The notes below the pieces were generated by a model, which was given only the letters and a program-made list of their open reading frames with translations, was not told the DNA's origin and searched no databases. Shown here piece by piece: positions 10,207 through 24,321 of a stretch of 64,000 bases of DNA (positions are counted from its first letter, which is position 1; the number at the start of each line of letters is the position of its first letter). The stretch lies in contig NZ_JABEKT010000001.1 in the NCBI RefSeq assembly GCF_013283195.1, positions 2,142,509 through 2,206,508 on the forward strand, written 5' to 3'. Source of the stretch: Ensifer adhaerens. GTDB taxonomy: Bacteria; Pseudomonadota; Alphaproteobacteria; Rhizobiales; Rhizobiaceae. Made by a program: the position numbers and the translations under genes.

Positions 10207-11709
10207 ATGAGCCTTGAAACCAGAATTCGCCGCAAGTCGTTGCATGACCGGATCGTCACGCCTGAGACGGCGGCGGCGCTGATCAAGGACGGCATGACGA
10301 TCGGCATGAGCGGCTTTACCAAGGCTGGCGATGCGAAAGCCGTGCCGCTGGCCATGGCGCAGCGGGCGGCTAAGGAGAAGTTTCGCATCACCCTGATGAC
10401 CGGAGCGTCGCTCGGGCACGACATCGACAAGATGCTGACGGAGGCGGGCGTTCTTGCGCGCCGCCTGCCGTTCCAATCCGATCCCGTGCTGCGCGCTGCC
10501 ATCAATCGCGGCGAAGTCATGTTCATCGACCAGCATCTCTCTGAAACGGTCGAGCAGCTCCGCTCCGGCCAGATCAGCCCGATCGATTATGCCGTCGTCG
10601 AGGCGGTGGCGATTACCGAGGACGGTGGCATCGTGCCTTCGACGTCGGTCGGCAACTCCGCAAGCTTTGCGATCCTCGCCAGGAAAGTGATCGTCGAGCT
10701 CAATCTCAGCCACAGCCCGGAGCTCGAGGGGCTGCATGACATCTACATTCCGGCCAAGCGACCGTCGCGCACGCCGATCCCGGTCGTCGCCTGCGACAGC
10801 CGCGTCGGCTCACCCTATATTCCGATCGATCCGGACAAGATTGCAGCGATCGTTATCACCGAAAAGCAGGACAGCGCCGCGCGCATCTCGCCACCGGATG
10901 CCGAGACCATCTCGATCGCCGGGCACCTCATCGACTTCCTTCAGGACGAAGTGCGCAAGGGTCGGCTCGACATGACGCTGAACCCGTTGCAGGCGGGTAT
11001 CGGCGTCATAGCGAATTCGGTCTTGAGTGGCCTCGTCGACAGCCCGTTCCACGATCTGCGCATGTACAGCGAAGTGCTGCAGGACAGCACCTTCGAGCTT
11101 TTCGAGGCCGGCAAGCTGAGCTTCGCCTCGGCGGCGTCGATGACGCTCAGCAGCACCTGGGCCGATCGGGTCTTCCGCAATATCCGCGCCTACAAGGACA
11201 AGGTGATCCTGCGGCCACAGGAGGTGAGCAACCATCCGGAGATCATCCGCCGCCTCGGTGTCATAGGCATCAACACCGCGCTCGAGTTCGACATCTATGG
11301 CAACGTCAACTCGACCCATGTCGGCGGTACCGACATGATGAACGGCATCGGTGGCTCCGGTGACTTTGCCCGCAATGCGTTCCTGTCGATCTTTGTTGCG
11401 AAATCGGTTGCCAAGGGCGGCGCGATCTCGTCCGTGGTGCCGATGGTTTCCCATGTGGATCACACCGAACACGATGTCGATATTCTGGTCACCGAGCATG
11501 GGCTCGCCGATCTGCGCGGCCTTGCGCCGCGCGAGCGCGCGCCGTTGATCATCCGCAATTGTTGCCACCCGGCCTATCGCGAGTTGCTGGCGGATTATTT
11601 CAAGCGCGCCGTGGCAACACGGGCAGGGCAGACGCCGCATATCCTGGAGGAAGCCTTCGACTGGCACGTGCGCCGACTGAAGACGGGCAGCATGCTGCCG
11701 GGTGCCTGA
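10207..11709 (+). CDS. Succinyl-CoA:acetate CoA-transferase / acetyl-CoA hydrolase family
   Basis: A 500-residue enzyme of the Cat1/AarC/ScpC group of class I CoA-transferases, exchanging CoA between succinyl-CoA and acetate (or propionate). E289 in MYSEVLQD aligns with the catalytic glutamate of AarC, and GNVNSTHVGGTDMMNGIGG followed by SGDFARNA is the family's oxyanion/CoA-binding signature (glycines near residue 382). A Shine-Dalgarno AGGGAG precedes the ATG. The gene stands alone, convergent with a GntR regulator and separated from it by 4 bases, with a matching operator upstream. The exact acyl pair is not determined by the sequence. Confidence 0.88.
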   Translation: MSLETRIRRKSLHDRIVTPETAAALIKDGMTIGMSGFTKAGDAKAVPLAMAQRAAKEKFRITLMTGASLGHDIDKMLTEAGVLARRLPFQSDPVLRAAINRGEVMFIDQHLSETVEQLRSGQISPIDYAVVEAVAITEDGGIVPSTSVGNSASFAILARKVIVELNLSHSPELEGLHDIYIPAKRPSRTPIPVVACDSRVGSPYIPIDPDKIAAIVITEKQDSAARISPPDAETISIAGHLIDFLQDEVRKGRLDMTLNPLQAGIGVIANSVLSGLVDSPFHDLRMYSEVLQDSTFELFEAGKLSFASAASMTLSSTWADRVFRNIRAYKDKVILRPQEVSNHPEIIRRLGVIGINTALEFDIYGNVNSTHVGGTDMMNGIGGSGDFARNAFLSIFVAKSVAKGGAISSVVPMVSHVDHTEHDVDILVTEHGLADLRGLAPRERAPLIIRNCCHPAYRELLADYFKRAVATRAGQTPHILEEAFDWHVRRLKTGSMLPGA

Positions 11710-11713
11710 CCGC

Positions 11714-12337
11714 CTACTCCTGCGCCAGGTAGGTCATCAGGGCTGACATCGCCGCCGCCGCACCCTCGGCGTCGGCAGACGCGATCGCGTCGATCACCCT
11801 GATGTGGCGCTCGACCGATCCGCGCATTCGCTCGACGGACGCTGCGGCAAACCAGATGCGCCGGGCATGCGTCTGCAGTGGCGCAAGAGCCGCCGTCAGG
11901 AACCTGTTGGGGCAGACTTCCTCCATCAGTTCGTCGAAGACCTTGTCGGCCACCAGGAAGCCTTCCATGTCAGCAGCGTCTGCGCATCGGCTCATTTCCG
12001 CGGCGCATTCCTTCATTGCGCGCCGTGCATCCGTGGTGGCGTGTTCCGCGACCAAGGCGGCTGCAAGCGGCTCCAGCTTCTGGCGAGTTTGCACCACATG
12101 CGCGCGATCGTCCGGCCCGATCGTCGTTATCTGCAGTCCGATGCGCGGACGGACTTCCATCAGTTCCTGCCAGGCAAGCTTCTGGATGGCCTCGCGCACC
12201 GGCGTGCGGCCATGGCCGGCAAGTTCGATCAGTTGTCTTTCCGTCAGCAACATGCCGGGCTCAAGCTTGAGCGTAACGATCAGCCGCTCAAGAGCGAGAT
12301 AGGCGAGGTGGGCCTGGGAGTGAACTGACATGTGCAT
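11714..12337 (-). CDS. GntR-family (FadR/FCD subfamily) transcriptional regulator
   Basis: A 207-residue repressor-type protein. The N-terminal winged helix is typical of GntR (LKLEPGMLLTERQLIELAGH, then RTPVREAIQKL), and the C-terminal ~125 residues form an all-helical FCD ligand domain with metal-site-like His residues (HATTDARR, ERHIRVIDAI). It converges on the CoA-transferase gene. A perfect 14-bp palindrome sits 10 bases before its start codon, which suggests autoregulation, and a related dyad lies upstream of the CoA-transferase. The ligand is probably a small carboxylate or acyl-CoA; that is inference. M3 (12331) is an alternative start. Confidence 0.87.
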   Translation of the reverse strand: MHMSVHSQAHLAYLALERLIVTLKLEPGMLLTERQLIELAGHGRTPVREAIQKLAWQELMEVRPRIGLQITTIGPDDRAHVVQTRQKLEPLAAALVAEHATTDARRAMKECAAEMSRCADAADMEGFLVADKVFDELMEEVCPNRFLTAALAPLQTHARRIWFAAASVERMRGSVERHIRVIDAIASADAEGAAAAMSALMTYLAQE

Positions 12338-12346
12338 CCCACAGTT

Positions 12347-12360
12347 TCTGATATATCAGA
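12347..12360. promoter_or_regulatory. Perfect palindrome, candidate GntR autoregulatory operator
   Basis: TCTGATATATCAGA is a perfect 14-bp palindrome ending 10 bases before the divergently read gntR start. Its CTGAT-N2-ATCAG core matches the dyad at 10051-10062. The location over the leader or promoter of gntR fits repression of its own gene. It could also affect the ferric-reductase gene 230 bases to the right. Confidence 0.6.
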
Positions 12361-12591
12361 GCGTGTCATGTTTTCAGTTTAATGGCAAACGAACTCATGG
12401 CTGCTAATCAGGAATGATTACACTGATCGAAGTGGTAGCCATGGAACGGTAAAAGCCTCAGATTTCAACGGCCTGAATAAATTTGGCTTGCCGCCCGTTC
12501 GAGGGTTGAATGGTGTTGACGAAGAGGAAGCTGCTTGTCAGTCTTCTCTAAAAAGAGCGTCAGACATCGGCGTTGAGGGGCTTGGCTAAAG

Positions 12592-13845
12592 GTGGGTGCG
12601 TTTCTGGTCTGGTCGCTGATTGTTTTTGCGGGTCTGCTTGCCGTCCCGGCAGTCAGCCATACGAACGCGCAGACGACGTTCTCGCTGATGGCCTCCTCGA
12701 TGGCTTTCGTCGGTATGGGCATCGCGCAGTTCATGGCGGCACGCCCGCCGGTCATCGAGCCGTTGTTCGGCGGGCTTGACCGCATTTATCACCTTCACCG
12801 CAAGATCGGCATCAGTGTGCTGGTGCTTATCCTTGTCCACTATTTCCTGACGCCAGATTTCAAGGGGCTGTCATTCACCAGTGGACTGAACCAGCTTGCC
12901 GCCTCCGCCGGGAAGTATGCGTTCTACGGGCTTGTCATTCTGCTTGTTCTCAGCCTCGTCAAAATCATCCCAAAGACGAAGATCAAGATTCCCTACCACC
13001 TCTGGCGCTATACCCATCGCTTCATCGGCCTGCTGTTCGTCCTTGTCGCGTTCCACCAGATGTTCATCAAGCGTCCCTATGACAGCACCGCTCTGCTTGC
13101 GGTGTATCTCAATGTGTTCGCAGCACTCGGGATCCTGAGTTATGCCTATACGCAGCTTCTGCCTTGGCTGAGGACCCGTCGATACGACGTTTCCGAGGTG
13201 GTGAGGCACGATGGAGCGACGATCATTTCGGCGCGGCCAAAAGGTCGGGCGCTGCGGGCCAAACCCGGGCAGTTCGGTTTCCTGCGTGTGTTGAAGACTG
13301 GCCTGCGCGAGCCGCATCCCTTCACCATTGCCGGCATCGATGGCGACGGCACGGTGTGCTTCGCCATCAAGCCGCTCGGTGATTATACGCAGGCCCTGCG
13401 GGATAGCGTTGCCGTTGGCGACCGGCTGAAGCTCGAAGGCGGATACGGTCATTTCAATCATCGACGCGGCGCCAGGAAGCAGATCTGGCTTGCCGGAGGC
13501 ATCGGGGTCACGCCGTTCCTCGCCATGGCCCGCCATTTGACCGGCGGCGAGGGGCAGGACATCCACATGGTCTATTGCGTACGCGACCGAAAGGAAGCGA
13601 TCGGCCTTGAAACCTTCGAGGCGCAGGCGGAAAAGCTCGGCAACTTCAGCTTCGTGCTGCACGATTCGGCCACGGACGGGCGGCTTGATGCGGCCAAACT
13701 GGCGGCGGGCAGTCTCATCGATCCGGGCGAGGCCGACCTTTGGTTCTGCGGTCCGGCACCGCTGAGGGAGGCGATCGTCAAGGGCTTGAAAGAGCTTGGA
13801 AAGAAGCCGCTCCGCGTGGAGTTCGAACAGTTTCAGTTTCGATAG
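12592..13845 (+). CDS. Ferric-reductase-like transmembrane flavocytochrome (COG4097 type)
   Basis: A 417-residue membrane protein. About six hydrophobic helices occupy residues 1-190, with two His pairs spaced as in di-haem b ferric reductases/NOX: H69 and H83, then H142 and H155. The cytoplasmic C-terminal half has the FAD motif HPFTIAG (about 242-248), the NAD(P)H-binding LAGGIGVTPF (about 300-309) and FCGPAPLRE. It should move electrons from NAD(P)H across the inner membrane. The GTG at 12592 is the first usable start after an in-frame stop at 12574, with GAGGGG upstream, and it keeps helix 1. It is the first gene of the cytochrome/OmpA/caspase unit, 39 bases before the cytochrome gene; an electron-donor role to that protein is inference. 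Confidence 0.85.
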   Translation: MGAFLVWSLIVFAGLLAVPAVSHTNAQTTFSLMASSMAFVGMGIAQFMAARPPVIEPLFGGLDRIYHLHRKIGISVLVLILVHYFLTPDFKGLSFTSGLNQLAASAGKYAFYGLVILLVLSLVKIIPKTKIKIPYHLWRYTHRFIGLLFVLVAFHQMFIKRPYDSTALLAVYLNVFAALGILSYAYTQLLPWLRTRRYDVSEVVRHDGATIISARPKGRALRAKPGQFGFLRVLKTGLREPHPFTIAGIDGDGTVCFAIKPLGDYTQALRDSVAVGDRLKLEGGYGHFNHRRGARKQIWLAGGIGVTPFLAMARHLTGGEGQDIHMVYCVRDRKEAIGLETFEAQAEKLGNFSFVLHDSATDGRLDAAKLAAGSLIDPGEADLWFCGPAPLREAIVKGLKELGKKPLRVEFEQFQFR

Positions 13846-13884
13846 CAGTTTAATTGAAGATTTTTCGATTGAGGGAGTACGGCC

Positions 13885-16800
13885 ATGCGCGGTCTGCGTG
13901 AAATGCGAGCAAGCGTCTCGTCAAGTGCCGGCATCCGCACGAGGAACGGATTGGTATTGATTGCCGGTCTGCTCACCGCCACGCTCTGTCCCGGCGCCGC
14001 ATCGGCGCGCGACGCTTTTGCCGAGGACGCCTTCTCGACCTACAAGGCGAATGTCGGGAACGGCAAATACATATTCAACGCAGCCGGCTGCGGCGCCTGC
14101 CACGGATCGGGCGATGAAACCGAGCTTTTGTCCGGCGGCATGGAGATGAACACGGCGATCGGAACCTTCTATGCGCCGAACATCTCGAACCATGCCAACG
14201 GTATCGGCGGCTGGAGCAATGCCCAGTTTCTCAATGCGGTGATGGTCGGGCTCGACCGCGACGGCAACAATCTCTATCCGGTCATGCCCTATACGTCCTA
14301 TGGCGGGATGAGGCCGGAGGACGTGCTTGATATCAAAGCCTATGTCGAGACCTTGCCGCCGTCGGATGCGGCCTCCAAGGAACATGAGATCGCTTTTCCC
14401 TTTAGTCGACAAACGACGATAACTCTATGGAAACGCAGCAATTTCAACGTTCAGGCCTATCAGCCGCGCGAAGAGACGCAGATGGAGCGCGGGCGCTATC
14501 TGGTTGAAAATGTCGGCGGCTGCGGCGACTGTCATACGCCGCGCACGACCACCTACGGGCTCGATCTGGAACGCGCATATCAGGGCGAGAAGGGGCTGAC
14601 GGGTGCGGTCGCGCCCGATATCGGCAAGGCGAAGATGGCGGGTCTGGCCGCGCCCGAAGTCTTTACCACGGGCCTGATCGGCGAAGGCAAGAAGCTGTCC
14701 GGCGCACCGATCAGCGATCCCGTCATGCGACGCATCGTCAAGGGACTTTCGGCGCTCAGCGACGATGATCGTCGCGCGATCTACGCGTTCCTGTCCGATC
14801 GCGAGGTCAAGGCGCCGGCACCGGTGGCGCAATCTGTCACGGCAGTCTGCAAGGAGACCACCGCCTCGACGGCGTTCTCTGGCGACAATGCAGCACTCGC
14901 CCAACAGGCGGATGCATTCATCGGCAAGTATTGCCGCAACTGCCATGGTCCCGGCGAGAGTTCGCAGGGCAGCTACCCCGCAGGCGAACTGACGTCGATC
15001 GCCGCCGATGCCAATTTCGTCACGCCGGGCAATGCCGCGAAATCACGCCTCTTCACCTCGGTCACGAGCGGCCGCATGCCGCTTGGCAAGCGACCAACGG
15101 ATGAAGAGGTCAAGGTGCTCGAAGACTGGATCAATTCGCTCAGTGAAAAGAACCTGCCGCAGACGGCGGCCGCCAAGCCGGATCGATCGCGCCCGATGCT
15201 GTCCTACGACCAGTTCGTCGAAGCGGCGCTCAAGGATATCTCCAAGGTCAGCGCACTCGATCGTCGGCACGTGCGCTACTTCTCTTACCGCGACCAATAT
15301 AACGGCATGATGGGTTGCGAAGACGACGCCACGTTCATGAAGCGGATGGATGTGCTGGCGGGTGGCTTCAAGAAGTTGCTGAACTCCTTGTCTTATGGTC
15401 CGAAGCTGGTGGTGCCGGCGGAGGTGGACGGCACCAATGGCCTGCTCGTGCGGGTCGATCTGCGAGACTTGCAGTGGGATACCGCCGACTATGATTTCCT
15501 GGTCAAGCGCTACTTCTATGGCGTCGATCCGAAGAGCGATGCCTCGCTTCAGGCGCTGTCCACCGAGATGCAGACGCAGCTGCCGATAATGCGCATCGAC
15601 TGGTTCATGAGCAATGGCGCCCGGCCGGAGATTTACAACAGGCTGATGAAGTTGCCGACGCATATCCGAGAACTGGAAACGCGCTTCAAGATCGATGTGG
15701 ACGACAACATCAGGCGGCGCAATGTTCTGCGGGCCGGATTTGCGGATGGCTCCTCTGGTGTTTCGGACCACAACCGCATGCTTGAGCGGCACGATATGCC
15801 GTTTGGCGGATACTATTGGAAATCCTACGATTTCGCTGGTGATCTCGGCAAACAGGTGCTGAAGCGTTTCCCGCATGGGCCCAAGGAACTGGGCACGCTC
15901 GATGCCGGTCTGGTGCCGTTTGAGCACGATGGCGGGGAAATGATCTTTTCGCTGCCCAACGGCTTGCAGGGCTATTACCTGTCGACCGCGGCAGGAAAAC
16001 AGCTCGATGTCGGGCCCACCACCATCGTTTCGTTCCGCGAGCGGCCGATAGGCAAGGGGGTCGAGATCGTCAATGCCCGCTCCTGCTTCGATTGTCATGC
16101 CGATGGCATTCTGTCGAAGCGTGATCAGTTGCGCGACCACATCGCCACGTCGACGCTGTTCAGCAAGGACCAGCAGGATGTGCTGCTGGCGATGTATGTG
16201 AAACAGGCGGAGCTGGACGAGGCCTATCGCAAGGATCGCGAGCGCTTCGTCGGGGCTCTGCAGAAATTGGAAGTAACCGAACCGACACCGGACGGCGGAC
16301 TGCAGAGCAAGCACGCGCCCGGCGACGCGGAGATCGTCACCTATTTCGCCGACAAGTATGAAGACGAACTCGACTTCGACGGTCTGGCGGCTGAATTCGA
16401 CATGACGCCGCAGCAGTTTTCCGAAGCGGTCAAGCGCGTGACGGATGTGAATGTGCTGCGTCTCGGGCTGGATTGGGTCACGACGCTGGAGGCCGGCGGA
16501 ACTGTTCCGCGCAACGAGGTCGAACAGCAATATGCCCTGTTGCTGGAGCCGCTCACCCAGCGTCGCGCCCTCGATACCGGCTTGATCGTGGTCGCCGGCG
16601 ACGGACTGCAGCCGGAGGCAATGCCGCAGTCTGTGGCCGCGGCGGTTCCGGACTACCGCAAACAGGAGGCGACGGACGGCAGCAAGCTGGAGCTCGCGTT
16701 GAAGGTGCCGACGACGACGGCCAAGGTCGGCGACCAACTATCGTTCGAGCTCAGCGCCAATCAGGCCTGCGAATTGCAGATCCTCTATGTCGAGGAAAAC

Positions 16801-17112
16801 GGCAATGTCGAAGTCATCCCGGACGAGATGATCGGCAACACGACGCTGCAGCCCGGCGAACCCAGACTGATCCCGCAGCCCGGGACCGGCACGCTGACCT
16901 TCGATACGGCAGCGCCCGCTGAAACAATGCTTGCCTTCTGCCGGGTCGGTGGCCTGGCGGAGCAGAAGCTCACGCTGGAGAAAGCACGCCAATACGTCGC
17001 CCAATCGAAGTTGCCGCCGACGCGTGGGCTGGCGGTCAACCTCGCCAAGAAGGCGCGGGCGGACAACGGCGCGAGCAGCGTGCAGATGGTAACTTTCGAG
17101 ATCAAGGAATAG
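13885..17112 (+). CDS. Exported tetrahaem c-type cytochrome with C-terminal DUF4384-like domain
   Basis: A 1075-residue protein with an N-terminal signal/anchor (hydrophobic about 23-40, then ASA-R). It has four haem c sites: C69-GA-C72-H73, C213-GD-C216-H217, C350-RN-C353-H354 and C734-FD-C737-H738. The first two sit in class I cytochrome domains like those of membrane dehydrogenase cytochrome subunits. The third resembles planctomycete-type cytochrome domains (SRLFTSVTSGRMP). A long unrecognised region (about 440-720) follows, then the fourth haem (ARSCFDCHADGI). The last ~130 residues (from ELALKVPTTTAKVGDQLSFE) form a beta domain resembling DUF4384 that is also seen in the two caspase homologues downstream. 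A GAGGGAG ribosome site precedes the ATG. The function is unknown; electron transfer in the periplasm is likely. Confidence 0.82.
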   Translation: MRGLREMRASVSSSAGIRTRNGLVLIAGLLTATLCPGAASARDAFAEDAFSTYKANVGNGKYIFNAAGCGACHGSGDETELLSGGMEMNTAIGTFYAPNISNHANGIGGWSNAQFLNAVMVGLDRDGNNLYPVMPYTSYGGMRPEDVLDIKAYVETLPPSDAASKEHEIAFPFSRQTTITLWKRSNFNVQAYQPREETQMERGRYLVENVGGCGDCHTPRTTTYGLDLERAYQGEKGLTGAVAPDIGKAKMAGLAAPEVFTTGLIGEGKKLSGAPISDPVMRRIVKGLSALSDDDRRAIYAFLSDREVKAPAPVAQSVTAVCKETTASTAFSGDNAALAQQADAFIGKYCRNCHGPGESSQGSYPAGELTSIAADANFVTPGNAAKSRLFTSVTSGRMPLGKRPTDEEVKVLEDWINSLSEKNLPQTAAAKPDRSRPMLSYDQFVEAALKDISKVSALDRRHVRYFSYRDQYNGMMGCEDDATFMKRMDVLAGGFKKLLNSLSYGPKLVVPAEVDGTNGLLVRVDLRDLQWDTADYDFLVKRYFYGVDPKSDASLQALSTEMQTQLPIMRIDWFMSNGARPEIYNRLMKLPTHIRELETRFKIDVDDNIRRRNVLRAGFADGSSGVSDHNRMLERHDMPFGGYYWKSYDFAGDLGKQVLKRFPHGPKELGTLDAGLVPFEHDGGEMIFSLPNGLQGYYLSTAAGKQLDVGPTTIVSFRERPIGKGVEIVNARSCFDCHADGILSKRDQLRDHIATSTLFSKDQQDVLLAMYVKQAELDEAYRKDRERFVGALQKLEVTEPTPDGGLQSKHAPGDAEIVTYFADKYEDELDFDGLAAEFDMTPQQFSEAVKRVTDVNVLRLGLDWVTTLEAGGTVPRNEVEQQYALLLEPLTQRRALDTGLIVVAGDGLQPEAMPQSVAAAVPDYRKQEATDGSKLELALKVPTTTAKVGDQLSFELSANQACELQILYVEENGNVEVIPDEMIGNTTLQPGEPRLIPQPGTGTLTFDTAAPAETMLAFCRVGGLAEQKLTLEKARQYVAQSKLPPTRGLAVNLAKKARADNGASSVQMVTFEIKE

Positions 17113-17122
17113 CGCTAAAGCA

Positions 17123-18025
17123 ATGGGCAAGATGATGAAAAGGTTGATCGTCGCTTCCGCAGTGTTGTTGCCGCTCGCCAACCCGGCCAGCGCCTGTGAC
17201 GCGTTGGTCGAAGCCTCTGAAGCTCTCAACAGGGGCGACGAGGCGGGGGCGCGATCGGCTGCCGCGCTGGAACGCACGAAAGCTTGTTCTGATACGGAGG
17301 CAGCGCTTACCCGGCGCGTGGCGGCGCTTGCGACTTTCAACCGCATCGCAAACGCGGCCGGGGGTGGCGCCTCCCTTGAAACGTTCCAAGGCGAGCTTGA
17401 AGCGGCGCGCGACGATGTCGGTGGACCATGGCAAATCCTCGACGCGCTTGGCGATATCGACCGGGCGCGAAAGAAATACGAAAGCGCGGCGACCTATTAC
17501 CAGCAGGCGTTGGAGGATGCGGCCAACGAGCAACTGACCCCGGAGTGGATGGCGCCGGACAACGCCTACATTCTGCGCCTCGATCGGCTTGCTTCCGAGA
17601 TGCGGCTTGCGGCGGCCAGGCCGGTGAAGCTCGCGATGCGCGGCGCCTGCAAATTTTCCTATCGCGGCGTATCGATCCGGAAGAAGGCGACGCCGGTTCG
17701 CTATGTCTTCGGGACTACCGAGTTCACACCTGAAGGGCTGCAGTCAGCAAAGGATCTGTTCGAGTGCCTGAAATCGGCAAAACCCGTGTCGATCACCCTG
17801 ATTGGCCACACGGATCCGGTGGGCGGCACAGAGGCGAACAAGACGCTGTCGTTGGCGCGTGCCGAAGCTCTCGCGCACTATCTCGTGGACGCTGGCTACA
17901 AGGGCACCTGGACCACGGTCGGCAAGGGTGAGGAAGAGCCGTTCAAGCCGGATGACCCGAGCGCCTATGACGAAGCGATGCTGCACCAATTGGATCGCCG
18001 CGTTGAAGTTGATGTGGAGAAATAG
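17123..18025 (+). CDS. Exported OmpA-family (peptidoglycan-binding) protein
   Basis: A 300-residue protein with a signal peptide (about 1-24, ending PASA-C). The middle contains TPR-like helices (about 100-135, ILDALGDIDRARKKYESAA) and the C-terminal ~110 residues are an OmpA/MotB domain. The domain has the conserved GHTDPVGGTEANKTLSLARA segment, with D231 and R246 in the positions that hold diaminopimelate. Cys25 after the signal lacks a good lipobox, so a soluble or wall-bound periplasmic form is more likely than a lipoprotein. M4/M5 are alternative starts. It lies 10 bases after the cytochrome gene and 3 bases before the caspase GTG, so it is tightly co-transcribed and may tether the system to the wall. 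Confidence 0.87.
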   Translation: MGKMMKRLIVASAVLLPLANPASACDALVEASEALNRGDEAGARSAAALERTKACSDTEAALTRRVAALATFNRIANAAGGGASLETFQGELEAARDDVGGPWQILDALGDIDRARKKYESAATYYQQALEDAANEQLTPEWMAPDNAYILRLDRLASEMRLAAARPVKLAMRGACKFSYRGVSIRKKATPVRYVFGTTEFTPEGLQSAKDLFECLKSAKPVSITLIGHTDPVGGTEANKTLSLARAEALAHYLVDAGYKGTWTTVGKGEEEPFKPDDPSAYDEAMLHQLDRRVEVDVEK

Positions 18026-18028
18026 ACG

Positions 18029-19582
18029 GTGCTGCGCGAAGCTCTGATTTCGAGCGTGATCTTTGGGCTATCGGCGCTGCCCGCCATGGCCGCCACGTCA
18101 GCGCTTGTTGTCGGCGTCGATACCTATCCACATGAAGTGAGCCTCGACGGCGCCGTCAAGGACGCACGTGACGTGGCGCAGGCATTGAAGGCGGCAGATG
18201 TCGGCCCTATCCGCGAATTCATCAATGAACAGGCGACCAAGGACGCGATCCGCACGGCCTGGCTGGAGCTTGTCGAGGCCGCAGCAGCCGGCGACACGAT
18301 CATCTTCACCTATGCCGGGCATGGCGCTCAGATGCCGGAGCTTGTTGCCGGCAGCGAGCCGGATGGGCTGGACGAGTTTTTGGAGCTTCCGGGCTTCGAT
18401 CGCAGCCGGGCTGCGGAGACGGCAAGGGAGGTCATCGTCGATAACGAGCTCAATGCCTGGTTCGCCGAAGCAGAGGCCAAGGGCGTTCAGGTGTTGTTCG
18501 TTTCCGACAGTTGCTACTCGGGCGGCATGAACCGGTCGATCTCCGGCAAGACGCGGCTTGCGCCGACGGTGCGGGCGCAGTTGCCGCCGCCGTCGCAAGA
18601 GGCGGTTTCCGGCGCGGCGGTCAAGGACGAGGATCTGGCGCAGGTGACGATCCTTGCCGCATCGCTTGAGAGCCAGCCAACGCCGGAGGTTGTGATCGAA
18701 GGTGAGCCAAGGGGCGCGCTCAGCTGGAGTTTCGCCCGTGCGCTTGAGGGGGCAGCCGATCGTGATGGCGATGGCCTGATCTCAAGGGTCGAGCTTGAGG
18801 ACTACGTCTTTTCCAACGTCAAGCTCCAGTCCGAGGCGCTGCAGGTGCCGAACTTTACGCCGCAGGTTCCGCGATCAGATAGGGAAATCGTCCTGTCCCT
18901 GCCCAGAAGCGCGACGCTGGCAATAGGCAACAGTGCTGCCGCGACCGGCCGGTCGGCAAAGCTGAAACCGGCCCGGGACATGGGGTGGACGGGCAAGCTG
19001 GCGCTCAGCGTCGACGGCGTGGCGCCGACGCTTGAGAATATCGGTGGCAGCGGCGTCCCCTATCGATGGGATGCTACCAGCGGCACATTCTACACGCCAA
19101 ACGGCGATGTTGCCGGCGAACACGTTGCCCCCGATATGGTGCAGGGGGTGGTGGACAAATTCATCGTCCTCGATTTCCTGAAGGCTCTCGCCGCGCAGAA
19201 CCCCGGCAAAGTCTCGCTGACGCCGGCCAAGGACATCTATTCATCAGGGGATCGCCTGAACTTCGATGCGCCGCAATCCGGATACGCGAACATGTTGGTC
19301 GTCAATCTCGCCAATACCGGGGAAGTCCAGCTTCTCGACGCCCAGATAGCAGGCTCCGGCAGCCATGTATTCAAGCTGACGGACCTGGAAGTGGTGAAAC
19401 CCTTCGGCGCCGATCATCTGGTGGTCATCTCGACGAATGCTTCGATCGACGCGGTCGCTGCTGCCCTCGCGGGCCCCGGCGTCGATGCATCGAGGTTTTT
19501 GCGTCTCCTGGAAGAACGGCTTGATGGAACCGACAGTGCCGTCGCGGTCCAGCCGCTCTATACGCGGGAGCGCGGGCAATGA
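18029..19582 (+). CDS. Exported caspase-family (C14) protease with EF-hand loop and DUF4384-like tail
   Basis: A 517-residue protein starting at GTG 3 bases after the ompA-like stop. A signal peptide (1-21, ALPAMA-A) predicts export. The caspase fold follows (about 24-260) with the catalytic dyad intact: H98 in YAGHGAQ and C162 in VSDSCYSGG. An EF-hand-type loop DRDGDGLISRVE (residues 244-255) follows the fold, consistent with Ca2+ dependence as in metacaspases. The C-terminal region (about 390-480) resembles DUF4384 (KVSLTPAKDIYSSGDRL). A periplasmic location is unusual for prokaryotic caspases used in cytoplasmic defence. Its substrate is unknown; neighbouring exported proteins are obvious candidates. 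Confidence 0.86.
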   Translation: MLREALISSVIFGLSALPAMAATSALVVGVDTYPHEVSLDGAVKDARDVAQALKAADVGPIREFINEQATKDAIRTAWLELVEAAAAGDTIIFTYAGHGAQMPELVAGSEPDGLDEFLELPGFDRSRAAETAREVIVDNELNAWFAEAEAKGVQVLFVSDSCYSGGMNRSISGKTRLAPTVRAQLPPPSQEAVSGAAVKDEDLAQVTILAASLESQPTPEVVIEGEPRGALSWSFARALEGAADRDGDGLISRVELEDYVFSNVKLQSEALQVPNFTPQVPRSDREIVLSLPRSATLAIGNSAAATGRSAKLKPARDMGWTGKLALSVDGVAPTLENIGGSGVPYRWDATSGTFYTPNGDVAGEHVAPDMVQGVVDKFIVLDFLKALAAQNPGKVSLTPAKDIYSSGDRLNFDAPQSGYANMLVVNLANTGEVQLLDAQIAGSGSHVFKLTDLEVVKPFGADHLVVISTNASIDAVAAALAGPGVDASRFLRLLEERLDGTDSAVAVQPLYTRERGQ

Positions 19583-21099
19583 GCGTCGACATCAGAGCCT
19601 GGTCATTGCTGTTGCCGTTTGTAAGCTTGGGGATGTGTTCGCCTTCATTGGCTGCGGACAGGGCCTTGCTGATCGGGATCGGAAGCTACCAGAACCTGCA
19701 GCCAAAGCTGTTTCTACACGGGCCGAAAAATGACCTTGTTGCCATGGAGGGGTTACTGGCCGGCACTCTCGGCTTCGATCGTTCTGTCATTCGCGTCCTG
19801 AAGGACGAGCAGGCGACGCGCGCGACCATCCTGTCGTCGATCGAGGAGTGGTTGGTCGCGGGCACGCAGCCCGGCGACCGAGCCTATCTCTATTATTCAG
19901 GTCATGGTCTCCAGGTCGCCGATATCGATGGCGACGAGGAGGATGGTTTGGATGAGGCGCTGGCGCCGTTCGATGTGGTCGCCGGGATCAAGGATTGGGA
20001 CGGTGCCGTCACCGATGACGAGCTCGATGCCATCCTCGACCGTTTGAAGGGCAGGGCGGTGACCCTGGTGATCGACGCCGGTTACTCAAGCACGATTTCG
20101 CGGTCGCTGTCGGGCGAGGTATCCGCCGGTATCGACGGCGCCCGTTTCCTGGCGCGGCCCGAGGCGAAACCGATGGAGCAGGCGCTGACACGTGGGCTTC
20201 GCATCGACCTTGGTGTCGTCGACAAGCCCAGCCGCGTCAAAGAGAGCGGTATCGTCGCCTGGAGTGCAAGCGCACCCTATCAGGTGGCATGGGACGATGT
20301 GAGGCTGCCGATCGAAGGCCGCCAGGGCGTTTTCACGAAGGCCTATGTCGCTGGACAGACGGGGGCGGCGGCGGACGCCAACGCCAACGGGCTGACCAGC
20401 AACGCCGAACTTTTCGAATATATCACCGCGCAATCTGCTGCTTACTGCGCATCGCAGGAGAAATGCGAGACCCTCGACCCGCAACTTGAGACGAAGGCGC
20501 TGAACCTCGGCGCCAGTGCAGTCGTTCCTGTTCAGGCAGGGACTGAAGTGACGGCACGGTATCAGCCCGTTGCCGGCGACGGTGCCGCCCCGGCAAGTTA
20601 TCAGGATGCAGATGCAGTCGATGCGGTCGGCGATATCGTCGGCAAGGCCGATGCTGGCGACGTGCGTATCAGCATCAACCGGCCAACCACGATGAAAGCC
20701 GGTGACGTGTTCAAGTTGACGGTCGCAAGCAAAGCTGCCGGAAGCCTCATCCTCATCGACGTCAATGCGAACGGCACTGCAACCCAGATCTTTCCCAACG
20801 AGTTCGCGCAGAAGATTACGCCGCTCGCCGCCGACGTTCCGTTGACATTACCGGACGAGTATTACGGCTTCGACTTCGAAGCCTCGGGAGAAGGCGACAG
20901 CGCCTTTGTTGCCCTCGTGATCAGCGATGCCGTCGATCTGGCAGACGTTGCGCCGAAAACCAGGGGACTGAAGGTCGAGCTCAGTGCGCGAGAAACGCTT
21001 AGCGAAATTGTCTCGCGGCTGCAGCAGGCCTGGACTGACGACCTGGAGAGACGTGGTATCCGCTGGTCGGTCGGCACGCTACGCTATCACGTCGAATGA
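19579..21099 (+). CDS. Exported caspase homologue lacking the catalytic Cys (pseudo-caspase)
   Basis: A 506-residue paralogue of the preceding gene, overlapping its stop by 4 bases (ATGA). The signal peptide ends near SLA-A at residue 25-26. The fold keeps H109 (YYSGHGLQ) and the acidic DGDEEDGLDEALAPFD segment of metacaspases. The nucleophile motif DSCxSG is replaced by DAGYSS (D166-A-G168-Y-S), so the Cys is Gly and peptidase activity should be absent. A degenerate EF-hand loop DANANGLTSNAE spans 266-277. Residues about 365-455 form a clear DUF4384-like domain (VRISINRPTTMKAGDVFKL, then IFPNEF). It could be a regulator, decoy or inhibitor of the active partner; that is inference. Confidence 0.85.
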   Translation: MSVDIRAWSLLLPFVSLGMCSPSLAADRALLIGIGSYQNLQPKLFLHGPKNDLVAMEGLLAGTLGFDRSVIRVLKDEQATRATILSSIEEWLVAGTQPGDRAYLYYSGHGLQVADIDGDEEDGLDEALAPFDVVAGIKDWDGAVTDDELDAILDRLKGRAVTLVIDAGYSSTISRSLSGEVSAGIDGARFLARPEAKPMEQALTRGLRIDLGVVDKPSRVKESGIVAWSASAPYQVAWDDVRLPIEGRQGVFTKAYVAGQTGAAADANANGLTSNAELFEYITAQSAAYCASQEKCETLDPQLETKALNLGASAVVPVQAGTEVTARYQPVAGDGAAPASYQDADAVDAVGDIVGKADAGDVRISINRPTTMKAGDVFKLTVASKAAGSLILIDVNANGTATQIFPNEFAQKITPLAADVPLTLPDEYYGFDFEASGEGDSAFVALVISDAVDLADVAPKTRGLKVELSARETLSEIVSRLQQAWTDDLERRGIRWSVGTLRYHVE

Positions 21100-21127
21100 T
21101 CGTTTCTGCGACAGGCCGGATAGTAAA

Positions 21128-21158
21128 AAGCCCGCCGAAAAGGCGGGCTTTCTGTTTG
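21128..21158. terminator. Bidirectional terminator between the pseudo-caspase gene and aapP
   Basis: AAGCCCGCC (21128-21136) pairs with GGCGGGCTT (21142-21150) across a GAAAA loop. T-rich sequence follows on the plus strand and a run of A precedes it (T on the minus strand). It can stop both converging transcripts. Confidence 0.9.
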
Positions 21159-21174
21159 AAGTCTTTCGCAATCC

Positions 21175-21951
21175 CTAGTGCAGGATCTGGCTGAGGAAGA
21201 GCTTGGTGCGCTCGTGCTGCGGATTGTCGAAGAACTCGGCGGGCGAGTTCTGTTCGACGATCTGGCCCTGGTCCATGAAGATCACGCGGTTGGCGACCTG
21301 GCGCGCAAAACCCATTTCGTGGGTCACGCACAGCATGGTCATGCCTTCTTCGGCGAGGCCCACCATTGTGTCGAGCACTTCCTTGACCATTTCCGGGTCG
21401 AGCGCCGAAGTCGGTTCATCGAACAGCAGGATCTTCGGCTTCATGCACAGCGAACGGGCAATCGCCACGCGCTGCTGCTGGCCGCCCGAAAGCTGGCCCG
21501 GATACTTGTGGGCCTGCTCGGGGATCTTGACGCGCTTCAGGAAGTGCATGGCGATTTCTTCGGCCTGCTTCTTCGGCATCTTGCGAACCCAGATCGGGGC
21601 GAGCGTGCAGTTTTCCAGGATCGTCAGATGCGGGAACAGGTTGAAGTGCTGGAACACCATGCCGACTTCGCGGCGCACTTCATCGATCTTCTTCAGATCG
21701 TTGGTGAGCTCGATGCCGTCTACGACGATCTTGCCCTTCTGGTGTTCTTCCAGGCGGTTGATGCAGCGGATCATCGTCGATTTGCCGGAGCCCGATGGGC
21801 CGGCAATGACGATTCGCTCGCCCTTCATCACCTTCAGGTTGATGTCACGGAGAACATGGAAGTCTCCGTACCATTTGTTCATTCCGCTGATTTCGACCGC
21901 AACGTCAGTCGCGGATACGGTCATCTTGGAAACAGTGGCTGCATTGGCCAT
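21175..21951 (-). CDS. aapP: General L-amino acid ABC transporter ATPase AapP
   Basis: A 258-residue ABC ATPase powering uptake and efflux of L-amino acids through AapQM. Walker A is GPSGSGKST, the signature [13 protein letters not shown], and Walker [15 protein letters not shown]; the H-loop lies in CVTHEMGFA. It is the last gene of the minus-strand aapJQMP operon, starting 14 bases after aapM, with the shared terminator downstream. The ATPase alone resembles GlnQ, but the adjacent large fused-loop permeases identify the Aap system of rhizobia. Confidence 0.97.
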
Positions 21952-21965
21952 GCGATCTCCCCCTC

Positions 21966-23123
21966 TTATCGTTTATGGCTCGTGTCGAGCACGCGTTCCA
22001 TGAAGCCTGAATAGCGCGACATACCGAAGCAGAAAAGCCAGAATATGAAGCCAGCGAAAATTAGCCCTGAGATCGGCGTCACCGCCGAAGCCCAATTGGC
22101 ATCCGAGAAGTTCAGCCGGACGATACCAAGAAGGTCGAACATCCCGATGATCGAGACCAGCGAGGTGTCCTTGAACAGCCCGATGAAGGTGTTGACGATG
22201 CCGGGGATAACGAGTTTCAGCGCCTGCGGCAGCACGATGAGGTTCATCTTCTGCCAGTAGCTGAGGCCGAGCGAATCGGCGCCCTCATACTGCCCCTTGC
22301 CGATCGCCTGCAGACCGCCGCGCACCACCTCGGCCATGTAGGCGGAGGCGAAGAACGACACGCCGATCAGCGCCCGCAGGAACTTGTCGAAAGTCACCCC
22401 CTGCGGCAGGAACAGCGGCAACATCACGCTCGCCATGAACAGAACGGTGATAAGCGGGATGCCACGCACAACTTCGATGAAGAATGTGCAGAGCATCTTG
22501 ATCACCGGCATGGTCGATCGCCGGCCGAGCGCAAGCAGGATGCCGAGCGGCAACGAGACCGCGATGCCGACGAAGGACAGCACCAGCGTCACCATCAGGC
22601 CGCCCCACAGCGGCGTCTCGACGAACGGCAGTCCGAACCACCCGCCTGGCAGAAGGATGAGCGCCAGGATAGGCAGAACGGCGAGAAGCAGGATCGCGTT
22701 GATGTTCTTGTAGGGAACCTTCGGGATCAGCATCGGGGTCAGGAACAGGACGAACAGGATGCCGACAAGTGCGGGGCGCCAGCGCTCCTCGATCGGGTAA
22801 CGCCCGAAGAGGAACTGGTCGAACTTGGCGTTGACGAAAGCCCAGCAGGCGCCGCTCCAGCCATCCGGTTGCGAGCCACCCTGCGCGACGGTCGCACAGA
22901 CACCACGTCCGCCGCCGGTCCAGGCGGCATCAATGAACAGCCATTGCACGGCCGGCGGGACGAGCCAGGCGAGCACAAGCAGGCTGATGATCGTCAGAGC
23001 CGTATCTTTCGGCGTCGCAAAGAGGTTCTTGCGAAGCCAGTAGGCAAGGCCGCCCGTCTGTATAGGCGCCGGTGCAGCCTCGATCATCGAGGCGCGGACA
23101 AAATTTCCCTGGTGTGAGTTCAT
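21966..23123 (-). CDS. aapM: General L-amino acid ABC transporter permease AapM
   Basis: A 385-residue inner-membrane permease of the HisMQ family with an unusually large periplasmic/loop insertion between helices 1 and 2 (about residues 45-180), a hallmark of AapM. The EAA-type loop near [15 protein letters not shown] contacts AapP. The ATG at 23123 (MNSHQGNFV) is preceded by GGTGGAG at good spacing and lies 4 bases after the aapQ stop; the frame is open 33 bases further, but that would overlap aapQ without a ribosome site. Confidence 0.95.
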
Positions 23124-23127
23124 GATC

Positions 23128-24321
23128 TTATCTCTCCACCAGGGCCATTCGGGCATTGAACCAGTTCATCAGCAACGACGTCGTCAGGCTCAGCGACAGG
23201 TAGACGATGATCCAGATCGATACGACTTCGATCGCCTGACCGGTCTGATTGAGAATCGTTCCGCCGACGGCAACCAGGTCGGCGTAGCCGATGGCAATCG
23301 CCAGTGACGAGTTCTTGGTCAGGTTGAGATACTGGCTGGTGAGCGGCGGAATGATGATCCGCATCGCCTGGGGTACGACGACAAGGCGGGTGGTGAGGCC
23401 GGGCCGGACGCCCAGTGCATGGGCAGCCTCGGTCTGTCCCTTCGAGACGCCACGGATACCGGCCCGAACGATTTCGGCGATAAAGGCGGCGGTGTAGAAG
23501 GAAAGCGCCAGGAACAGCGACAGGAACTCCGGTCCGATGACCGAGCCGCCGGTGAGGTTGAACTTGCCGGCTACCGGGACATCGAAGGTAATCGGCGAGC
23601 CGGTTGCCAGGAAGGCGAGGAGTGGCAACCCGATGACGAGGCCAAGCACGGTCCAGAGCAACGGGAAGCGCTGTCCGGTTGCTTCCTGCTTGATGCGGGC
23701 ATGGTGGGCGACGAGGAAGCTCGCGATCACGGCGATCACGAAGGCATATAAGACATATTGCGAGCCGTCGCCGAAGACCGGCTTCGGAAAGGCGATGCCG
23801 CGGTTGTTGAGGAAGATGTTGAGGGGCAGCGCGGCCGATTCGCGCGGTTGCGGAAGCACGGCCAGAACGCCGCTGTACCAGAAGAAGATGACCAGCAGCG
23901 GCGGGATGTTGCGGAACACTTCGACATAGGCGAGCGACAGTTTCGCGATCAGCCAATTGTGCGAGAGCCGCCCGATGCCGACGATGAAGCCGATGATGGT
24001 TGCGGTGATGATGCCGGTTATCGCCACGAGCAGCGTATTGAAGAAGCCGACGACCAGCGCGCGCCCGTAAGTGGAGTCACTCGTATAGGCGATCAAGGAC
24101 TGCCCGACATCGAAGCCGGCGCGCCCGTTGAGGAAGCCGTAGCCGGACGCGATGTTGGCACGCTTGAGGTTCTCGATCGTGTTGTCCGCTATCCAATAGA
24201 CGACGGCAACGAGAATAATGACGGTTATGACCTGGTAAAATATTCCGCGCACCTGCGGGTCGTTGATGATCGAACCGGAAGGTTTGCTTTTCTCAGGCGT
24301 AGTTGTGACGCCAATCGCCAT
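23128..24321 (-). CDS. aapQ: General L-amino acid ABC transporter permease AapQ
   Basis: A 397-residue HisMQ-family permease, partner of AapM. About eight hydrophobic segments are visible; the C-terminal half carries the ATPase-contact loop around [20 protein letters not shown]. The ATG at 24321 ([11 protein letters not shown]) follows AAAGAGG; the upstream in-frame extension overlaps the intercistronic hairpin and is not credible. The gene is separated from aapJ by 92 bases holding a stable stem-loop, consistent with higher expression of the binding protein than of the permeases. Confidence 0.95.

Follow-up and report, generated by a model that had tools for sequence, protein, structure and literature searches.

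The window analysed here is a stretch of 64,000 nucleotides from the 7.07 Mb genome of Ensifer adhaerens (assembly GCF_013283195.1, contig NZ_JABEKT010000001.1, positions 2,142,509 to 2,206,508). Five intact open reading frames (ORFs), named A to E, lie head to tail on its + strand, and these five genes form a conserved unit. Between A and B, B and C, and C and D there are 39, 10 and 3 bases, and D and E share a 4-base ATGA overlap; ORFs, gaps and overlap were all reproduced as an earlier note on this DNA had described them. Pfam assigned Ferric_reduct, FAD and NAD domains to A, cytochrome c and DUF4384 to B, OmpA to C, Peptidase_C14 to D, and Peptidase_C14 together with DUF4384 to E. All five genes are under purifying selection, as the ratios of non-synonymous to synonymous substitution (dN/dS) against the genus were 0.05-0.11 for A, 0.08-0.11 for B, 0.09-0.18 for C, 0.08-0.14 for D and 0.12-0.19 for E, the last calculated against the 14 genus genomes with a whole E. 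Among named organisms, Sinorhizobium sp. A49 and Ensifer oleiphilus are the nearest, each with 97% identity over the C-terminal part of B.

Component proteins of the unit

Gene A (12592..13845, + strand) encodes a predicted transmembrane protein of 417 amino acids, a homologue of the NAD(P)H oxidase (NOX) type represented by SpNOX of Streptococcus pneumoniae. Its Pfam matches above the cut-off were PF01794 (Ferric_reduct, the transmembrane component), PF08022 (FAD) and PF00175 (NAD). In a phmmer search of the Protein Data Bank (PDB), chains of 8qt6, 8qq7 and 8qta scored best (E 2e-42 to 6e-42). These are taken to be SpNOX because 8qq5 and 8qq1 of the same hit list are named in the excerpted text of PMC11031084, from which 8qt6 itself is absent. 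The alignment of A with SpNOX spans residues 27-416 and thereby covers the haem, flavin and nucleotide parts up to the C-terminal aromatic residue, and both proteins have the HPF(T/S) flavin motif. The predicted b-haem ligands His69, His83, His142 and His155, plus His242, were identical in 97/97 rows of A, with second copies of some genomes included in that count. According to passages of PMC5676040, bacterial NOX proteins can be filtered by two His-X12/14-His haem motifs; A shows this pattern (His69-X13-His83 and His142-X12-His155) and carries its FAD and NAD(P)H domains in one chain. Judged by its sequence, A is an SpNOX-type enzyme. The earlier description as a ferric-reductase-like flavocytochrome fits the Ferric_reduct, FAD and NAD domains, but the alignment and the closest solved relatives make SpNOX-type the better name.

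Gene B (13885..17112, + strand) encodes a predicted exported c-type cytochrome of 1075 amino acids. Four CXXCH motifs (residues 69, 213, 350 and 734) and an N-terminus that looks like an export signal agree with the tetrahaem exported protein proposed earlier. Residues 39-366 (13999..14982, + strand) constitute a cytochrome module matching 7w2j_C, a cytochrome subunit of the fructose dehydrogenase type (phmmer, E 1.2e-37), and the motifs at 69, 213 and 350 all fall inside the aligned stretch. The motif at 350 is kept in 131/131 B rows; those at 69 and 213 occur in 107/131 and 106/131 rows, because shorter relatives of B do not have that part. Residues 430-905 (15172..16599, + strand; 476 residues, with the CXXCH at 734) make up an unannotated haem domain whose structure was predicted with confidence, and a PDB search with it gave no fold match. 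Residues 947-1016 (16723..16932, + strand) are a DUF4384 module (PF14326, 28.7 bits against a cut-off of 27). Modules of this type were recognized in B and E by Pfam and weakly in D by hhalign, in which the D C-terminus aligned with the DUF4384 of B at a probability of 87; Pfam gave no DUF4384 match for D. The kinship of A with SpNOX, the fructose-dehydrogenase-type start of B, its haem domain and the DUF4384 modules are all additions to the earlier note.

Gene C (17123..18025, + strand) encodes a predicted exported OmpA-family protein of 300 amino acids with a weak TPR match. PF00691 (OmpA) was found at residues 194-279, and C carries Asp231 and Arg246 where OmpA domains contact peptidoglycan. 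The predicted function is therefore wall binding, as the earlier note had it. At the N-terminus of C, the residues ASA are followed by a Cys near the likely cleavage site, and a lipoprotein form is possible.

Gene D (18029..19582, + strand; 517 amino acids) encodes a caspase-family protease, predicted to be exported, with a PF00656 match and the dyad His98/Cys162. The dyad is intact in all 84 D rows that cover both sites, the window row and about 10 second copies from the same genomes included; one further row is a fragment. The last gene, E (19579..21099, + strand; 506 amino acids), encodes a second caspase homologue with PF00656 and PF14326, in which His109 is present and Gly168 replaces the catalytic Cys. 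Export signals were judged by a heuristic, namely a hydrophobic N-terminal stretch and an A-x-A motif. B, C, D and E all have the hydrophobic stretch, and B, C and D also the motif. Thus the exported caspase with an intact dyad described earlier was recovered in D, while of the four export signals claimed, that of E lacks the A-x-A.

Conservation of the unit and its association with caspases

B was found in 16/16 genomes of the genus, the own genome included, and the order A-B-C-D-E is kept in all 15 others, one of which has a split E. With start codons picked to fit the gene lengths of the window, the spacing in these 15 genomes was 38-47 bases for A-B, 6-10 for B-C, -4 to 3 for C-D and -4 for D-E, except at the last junction of the genome in which the E frame is split. 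For a wider comparison, 84,980 species genomes were scanned by pattern, which yielded 523 stretches coding for proteins related to the B C-terminal part. The loci obtained from the best 80 of these 523 stretches form the 79-locus set on which most synteny counts are based; its loci are mutually related, not independent, and the later gene counts come from six-frame profile searches of the loci. The full order A-B-C-D-E was present in 47 of the 79 loci, A-B-C-D in 7, and A-B without D/E-type caspases in 22; in the other 3 the contig begins at B. A adjoins B in 76/76 loci having sequence upstream of B, and in 75/79 under a stricter distance rule, which missed L149 because its frames overlap. An OmpA-type gene lies within 5 kb of B in 75/79 loci, a count without a control set for OmpA.

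Hence the five families do form a conserved neighbourhood, and the possibility raised earlier that they co-occur only here, or in unrelated orders, largely fails on these counts. The order itself does vary among relatives: Neorhizobium has caspase-OmpA-A-B, and some others have a diheme gene followed by D-E-B-C. On a Neorhizobium plasmid, third-party annotation lists a caspase, an OmpA protein, a member of the ferredoxin reductase family and a c-type cytochrome in a row. Split frames occurring in single genomes (A and C in L111, C and D in L153) may be assembly errors or real.

In the sample of the order, 285/397 genomes matched B at 1e-10. At least 36 loci of this sample hold the C-terminal part of B, and the other listed matches concern the N-terminal cytochrome part. 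With the profile of the B C-terminus at 1e-40, 2/385 genomes of the class sample and 3/398 of the phylum sample were positive, own included, so the family is rare in both samples and no wide spread is claimed. A strain-specific oddity was rejected in view of the 16/16 genus genomes and the 79-locus set.

The caspases beside A-B are often of types other than D and E. At least one caspase was detected in 70/79 loci, with a profile built in this analysis. Among the 69 fully flanked loci (>5 kb upstream and >4 kb downstream), 63 have a caspase close to B, compared with 3 of 19 control loci around diheme-only homologues of B from the same order (Fisher p 3.9e-10), in a control that is small, unmatched by genome and limited by the origin of its three caspase matches from one genus. 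By family names taken from the records, which 13 loci do not carry, a caspase stands near B in 9/10 named families, the exception being Stappiaceae (Roseibium, 0/2). The background was 227 caspase matches over 27 B-bearing genomes (about 146 Mb; 3-23 each, about 1.6 per Mb), and the chance of a caspase within 20 kb was about 3%. A chance neighbourhood was therefore rejected on the synteny, the caspase control and this background density. The own genome has at least four further caspase genes beyond the unit (C1 1581206, C1 2797733, C14 667932 and C14 685088).

Caspases other than D or E numbered 41 near B, distributed over 23/79 loci, and all 41 have the His/Cys dyad as read from the profile alignment. 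In 14 of these 23 loci there is neither D nor E, and only other caspase subfamilies are present. When nine non-D/E caspases (from six loci of the 79-locus set and two others) were scanned by Pfam, several were found with SH3, Sel1, PG_binding or LprI domains. The best indication that redox pair and caspases are functionally tied is that one and the same pair is accompanied by different caspase subfamilies. Another genome (G564) has six caspase domains in about 24 kb of contig C1 (975686-999700), surrounding a relative of B (982889-984451).

Upstream of A, an alignment of 16 genus upstream regions revealed a conserved block (12515..12549, + strand), which is a possible promoter or operator, that is, a candidate regulator site. 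In the region 12300-21300, no match to the sigma-70-type consensus was found against 2.1 expected, and terminator-like sites were fewer than in shuffles (3 against 7.8). The flanks (10207-12337 and 21175-23156) hold what we take to be a CoA-transferase-like gene, a GntR-type regulator gene and two amino-acid ABC transporter (aap) genes. GntR and both transporter genes are retained in 15/15 genus loci, and the CoA-transferase gene in 12/15. For the genus, a mobile or phage element was rejected because of these constant aap and GntR neighbours. Relatives of the B domain on mobile records comprise one plasmid and one weak match (21% identity) on a 595 kb unannotated phage record.

Loss of the catalytic dyad in gene E

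The earlier note had described E as a caspase homologue without its Cys. This is correct for the present strain, which has Gly168, but it is no trait of the E family: since 55/63 distinct E rows keep the dyad and 8 have lost it, the missing Cys is, on the alignment, particular to the lineage of this strain. The 8 losses need at least five changes on the E tree, a quick one in which some long branches make deep placements unsure. Three losses within the genus sit on separate branches with intact neighbours, and the residues affected differ: Cys to Gly in the window, His to Gln in Ensifer sp. LC163 and His to Arg in E. adhaerens ST2. In E. sesbaniae (L087, the same genome as L129), E is split into separate frames and A-D are intact.

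Two readings of this pattern were considered, a regulatory pseudo-caspase and a redundant protease in decay, and for the E of this strain we put the latter only just short of an even chance. Decay would agree with the different ways in which E was lost or damaged within one genus (Gly, Gln, Arg, split frame), and also with the three closest pairs of the window subclade, for which the dN/dS of the caspase part was 0.20-0.24 in E and 0.08-0.10 in D, the C-terminal part of E giving 0.13-0.15. Against the next relative (L077), however, the caspase part of E (0.11-0.13) is tighter than its C-terminal part (0.14-0.18). The relaxed caspase part is thus weakened as a proof of decay, as the excess exists in the three closest pairs only and is reversed against L077. 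Moreover, E is full length in all but one of the 16 genus genomes and is constrained overall (0.12-0.19), and a dyad-less E persists beside D and B in L049, L050, L054 and L060, which argues that a non-catalytic E can be maintained. Taken together, the data are a hint, and no more, that E may be losing its protease function while keeping its body.

Proposed role and comparison with known systems

We tentatively read the locus as one conserved envelope module coupling a redox chain to periplasmic caspases, a reading which we consider possible and still somewhat less than probable. From the gene content, its conservation, the domain identities, the catalytic and haem residues and the constraint, we infer a scheme in which electron transfer, docking, gating, the signal and the substrates are all proposed. 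Electrons of cytosolic NAD(P)H would cross the inner membrane through A, by way of its FAD and two b-haems, and go on to periplasmic B. The first three haems of B would serve as a relay of the fructose dehydrogenase type and the fourth-haem domain as a sensing or catalytic head. C may anchor the assembly to peptidoglycan, and the DUF4384-type modules of B, E and, weakly, D could provide the contact by which the caspases dock on B. The activity of D would then depend on the redox state of B, or on the O2, peroxide or NO that reaches the fourth haem. A further caspase, E, would take part, in several lineages only as a non-catalytic partner.

Passages of PMC5676040 describe the outer haem of SpNOX as possibly accessible to cytochrome c, so by analogy a direct transfer from A to B is plausible. 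In cyanobacteria, loss of a pseudo-orthocaspase raised H2O2 tolerance (excerpts of PMC7889975), which is a hint at a redox role for caspase homologues elsewhere. In its most specific form, the proposal states that a giant cytochrome c, its fourth-haem domain having an as yet unsolved fold, receives electrons from a NOX and by its state switches wall-anchored periplasmic caspases, with the second caspase repeatedly becoming a dead regulator in a cFLIP-like manner; we regard this full pathway as unlikely. If true, it would be an envelope counterpart of the mitochondrial link between cytochrome c and caspases. Mitochondria are held to derive from Alphaproteobacteria. Programmed wall damage, one of the functions suggested earlier, received no support from any result of the analysis.

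Apart from the single-genus origin of the control matches, several observations weigh against a coupling of redox pair and caspases. A-B occurs with no caspase found in six fully flanked loci, namely Roseibium L139 and L141, Hoeflea L140, L143 and L154, and L144; L135, L136 and L164 are caspase-less too, but these loci end short. In L037-L042, L044 and L045, neither A nor a caspase was found near B. The existence of A-B without a caspase, and of B alone, therefore points to an independent role for the redox pair. Conversely, in L048-L050, L052-L054, L060 and L064 the C-terminal part of B is accompanied by D, E and C with no A found. DUF4384 was detected by Pfam in 0/9 of the scanned non-D/E caspases, nor in a tenth one of D type; DUF4384 as a universal dock is thereby weakened, and because nine other-type caspases do not carry it, docking through this module cannot be general. 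Nor are the loci independent: of the 47 with all five genes, 46 come from Rhizobiaceae or from Rhizobiales isolates, and the remaining one from Cucumibacter. The eight loci with B and neither A nor caspase belong to one genus with genomes of about 2.4-3.6 Mb, and in 7/8 of them an OmpA-type gene lies on the opposite strand.

One alternative is envelope redox maintenance, in which A-B would be a periplasmic reductase or peroxidase chain for repair or for the removal of oxidants, similar to MsrPQ or cytochrome c peroxidase, and the caspases separate proteases under the same promoter, serving the quality control of oxidised envelope proteins. The six caspase-less A-B loci speak for it, and B accompanied by an OmpA gene alone also exists; with OmpA near B in 75/79 loci, A and B look like the more ancient core. 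A mere shared promoter, however, does not require the varied caspase subfamilies beside A-B, and Pfam found no Mo-enzyme or known peroxidase domain in the five genes. We consider redox maintenance doubtful.

A death or defence function by oxidative burst, in which periplasmic superoxide comes from A and the caspases kill their own cell upon attack by phage or stress, appears improbable. Its attraction lies in the nearest solved relatives of A, since SpNOX is a reported superoxide producer (passages of PMC5676040), and in the raised H2O2 tolerance of the pseudo-orthocaspase mutant already cited (PMC7889975). PADLOC, however, matched no system beyond generic models: D and E were recognized by one for caspases in general, and C weakly by generic TPR/MotB models. 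A known anti-phage defence system was rejected on this ground. B is also present in 16/16 genus genomes between flanks kept in 15/15, and such a stable placement is unlike that of the usual mobile defence islands; the dedicated cytochrome beside A would further argue against O2 as the main acceptor. Least probable of all is a periplasmic metal or terminal-acceptor reductase with the caspase genes as passengers, which could draw on the Pfam placement of A in the ferric reductase superfamily and on the likeness of the first part of B to dehydrogenase cytochrome subunits, but the caspase link is too regular for passengers (63/69 against 3/19) and Pfam found no porin or outer-membrane conduit in the five genes.

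If the chain of the envelope module is functional, it would allow the question whether the redox state of a cytochrome can control caspase activity, until now a mitochondrial one, to be put to a bacterium with simple genetics. The unit also suggests a testable function for DUF4384, for caspases that bacteria export and for a haem domain to which no solved relative was found. With an E dyad lost repeatedly next to an unchanging D, the locus is a natural experiment in how pseudo-proteases evolve.

As the earlier note had supposed, the open-licence literature searched showed no named system in which an NADPH oxidase and a multi-haem cytochrome are joined to a wall anchor and to caspases. We rate the unit as new as a system: it combines known kinds of parts with one domain for which no fold was found, and its function is proposed. 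The main text of the caspase survey PMC6426788 mentions DUF4384 once and cytochromes never, and cites an earlier proposal of an alphaproteobacterial origin of caspases. The 2012 metacaspase survey, in passages of PMC3501461, reports multi-metacaspase operons in Alphaproteobacteria among others and OmpA in 14/217 metacaspase operons, so the OmpA-caspase part was known before; in its main text the word cytochrome is absent and no NOX-cytochrome-caspase unit was met. An NnrR-controlled Bradyrhizobium caspase is listed in the excerpted text of PMC6710368 and is not linked to the present unit.

Each part has a known counterpart to which it can be compared. MsrPQ resembles A in that its membrane-bound haem protein, a member of the ferric reductase superfamily, feeds a periplasmic partner. 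MsrQ is devoid of FAD and NAD domains and is encoded with the molybdoenzyme MsrP, whereas A has its own FAD and NAD domains and no Mo-enzyme is among the five genes. The FdhC-type subunit of fructose, aldehyde and alcohol dehydrogenases resembles the three-haem part of B (39-366; 7w2j_C, E 1.2e-37), but B adds the fourth-haem domain and DUF4384, and in none of the five genes did Pfam find the large-subunit domain of a flavin or quinone dehydrogenase. SpNOX is like A in its membrane and dehydrogenase parts, the four haem His, HPF(T/S) and the C-terminal aromatic residue; in passages of PMC5676040 and PMC11031084 it is treated as a stand-alone superoxide producer, whereas A adjoins a c-type cytochrome gene in 76/76 loci. 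D is similar to the bacterial caspase homologues in having Peptidase_C14 with an intact dyad. E shares its lost Cys with the pseudo-orthocaspases (main text of PMC6426788) and differs from them in that the loss is recent, repeated and located beside an intact paralogue in a redox operon.

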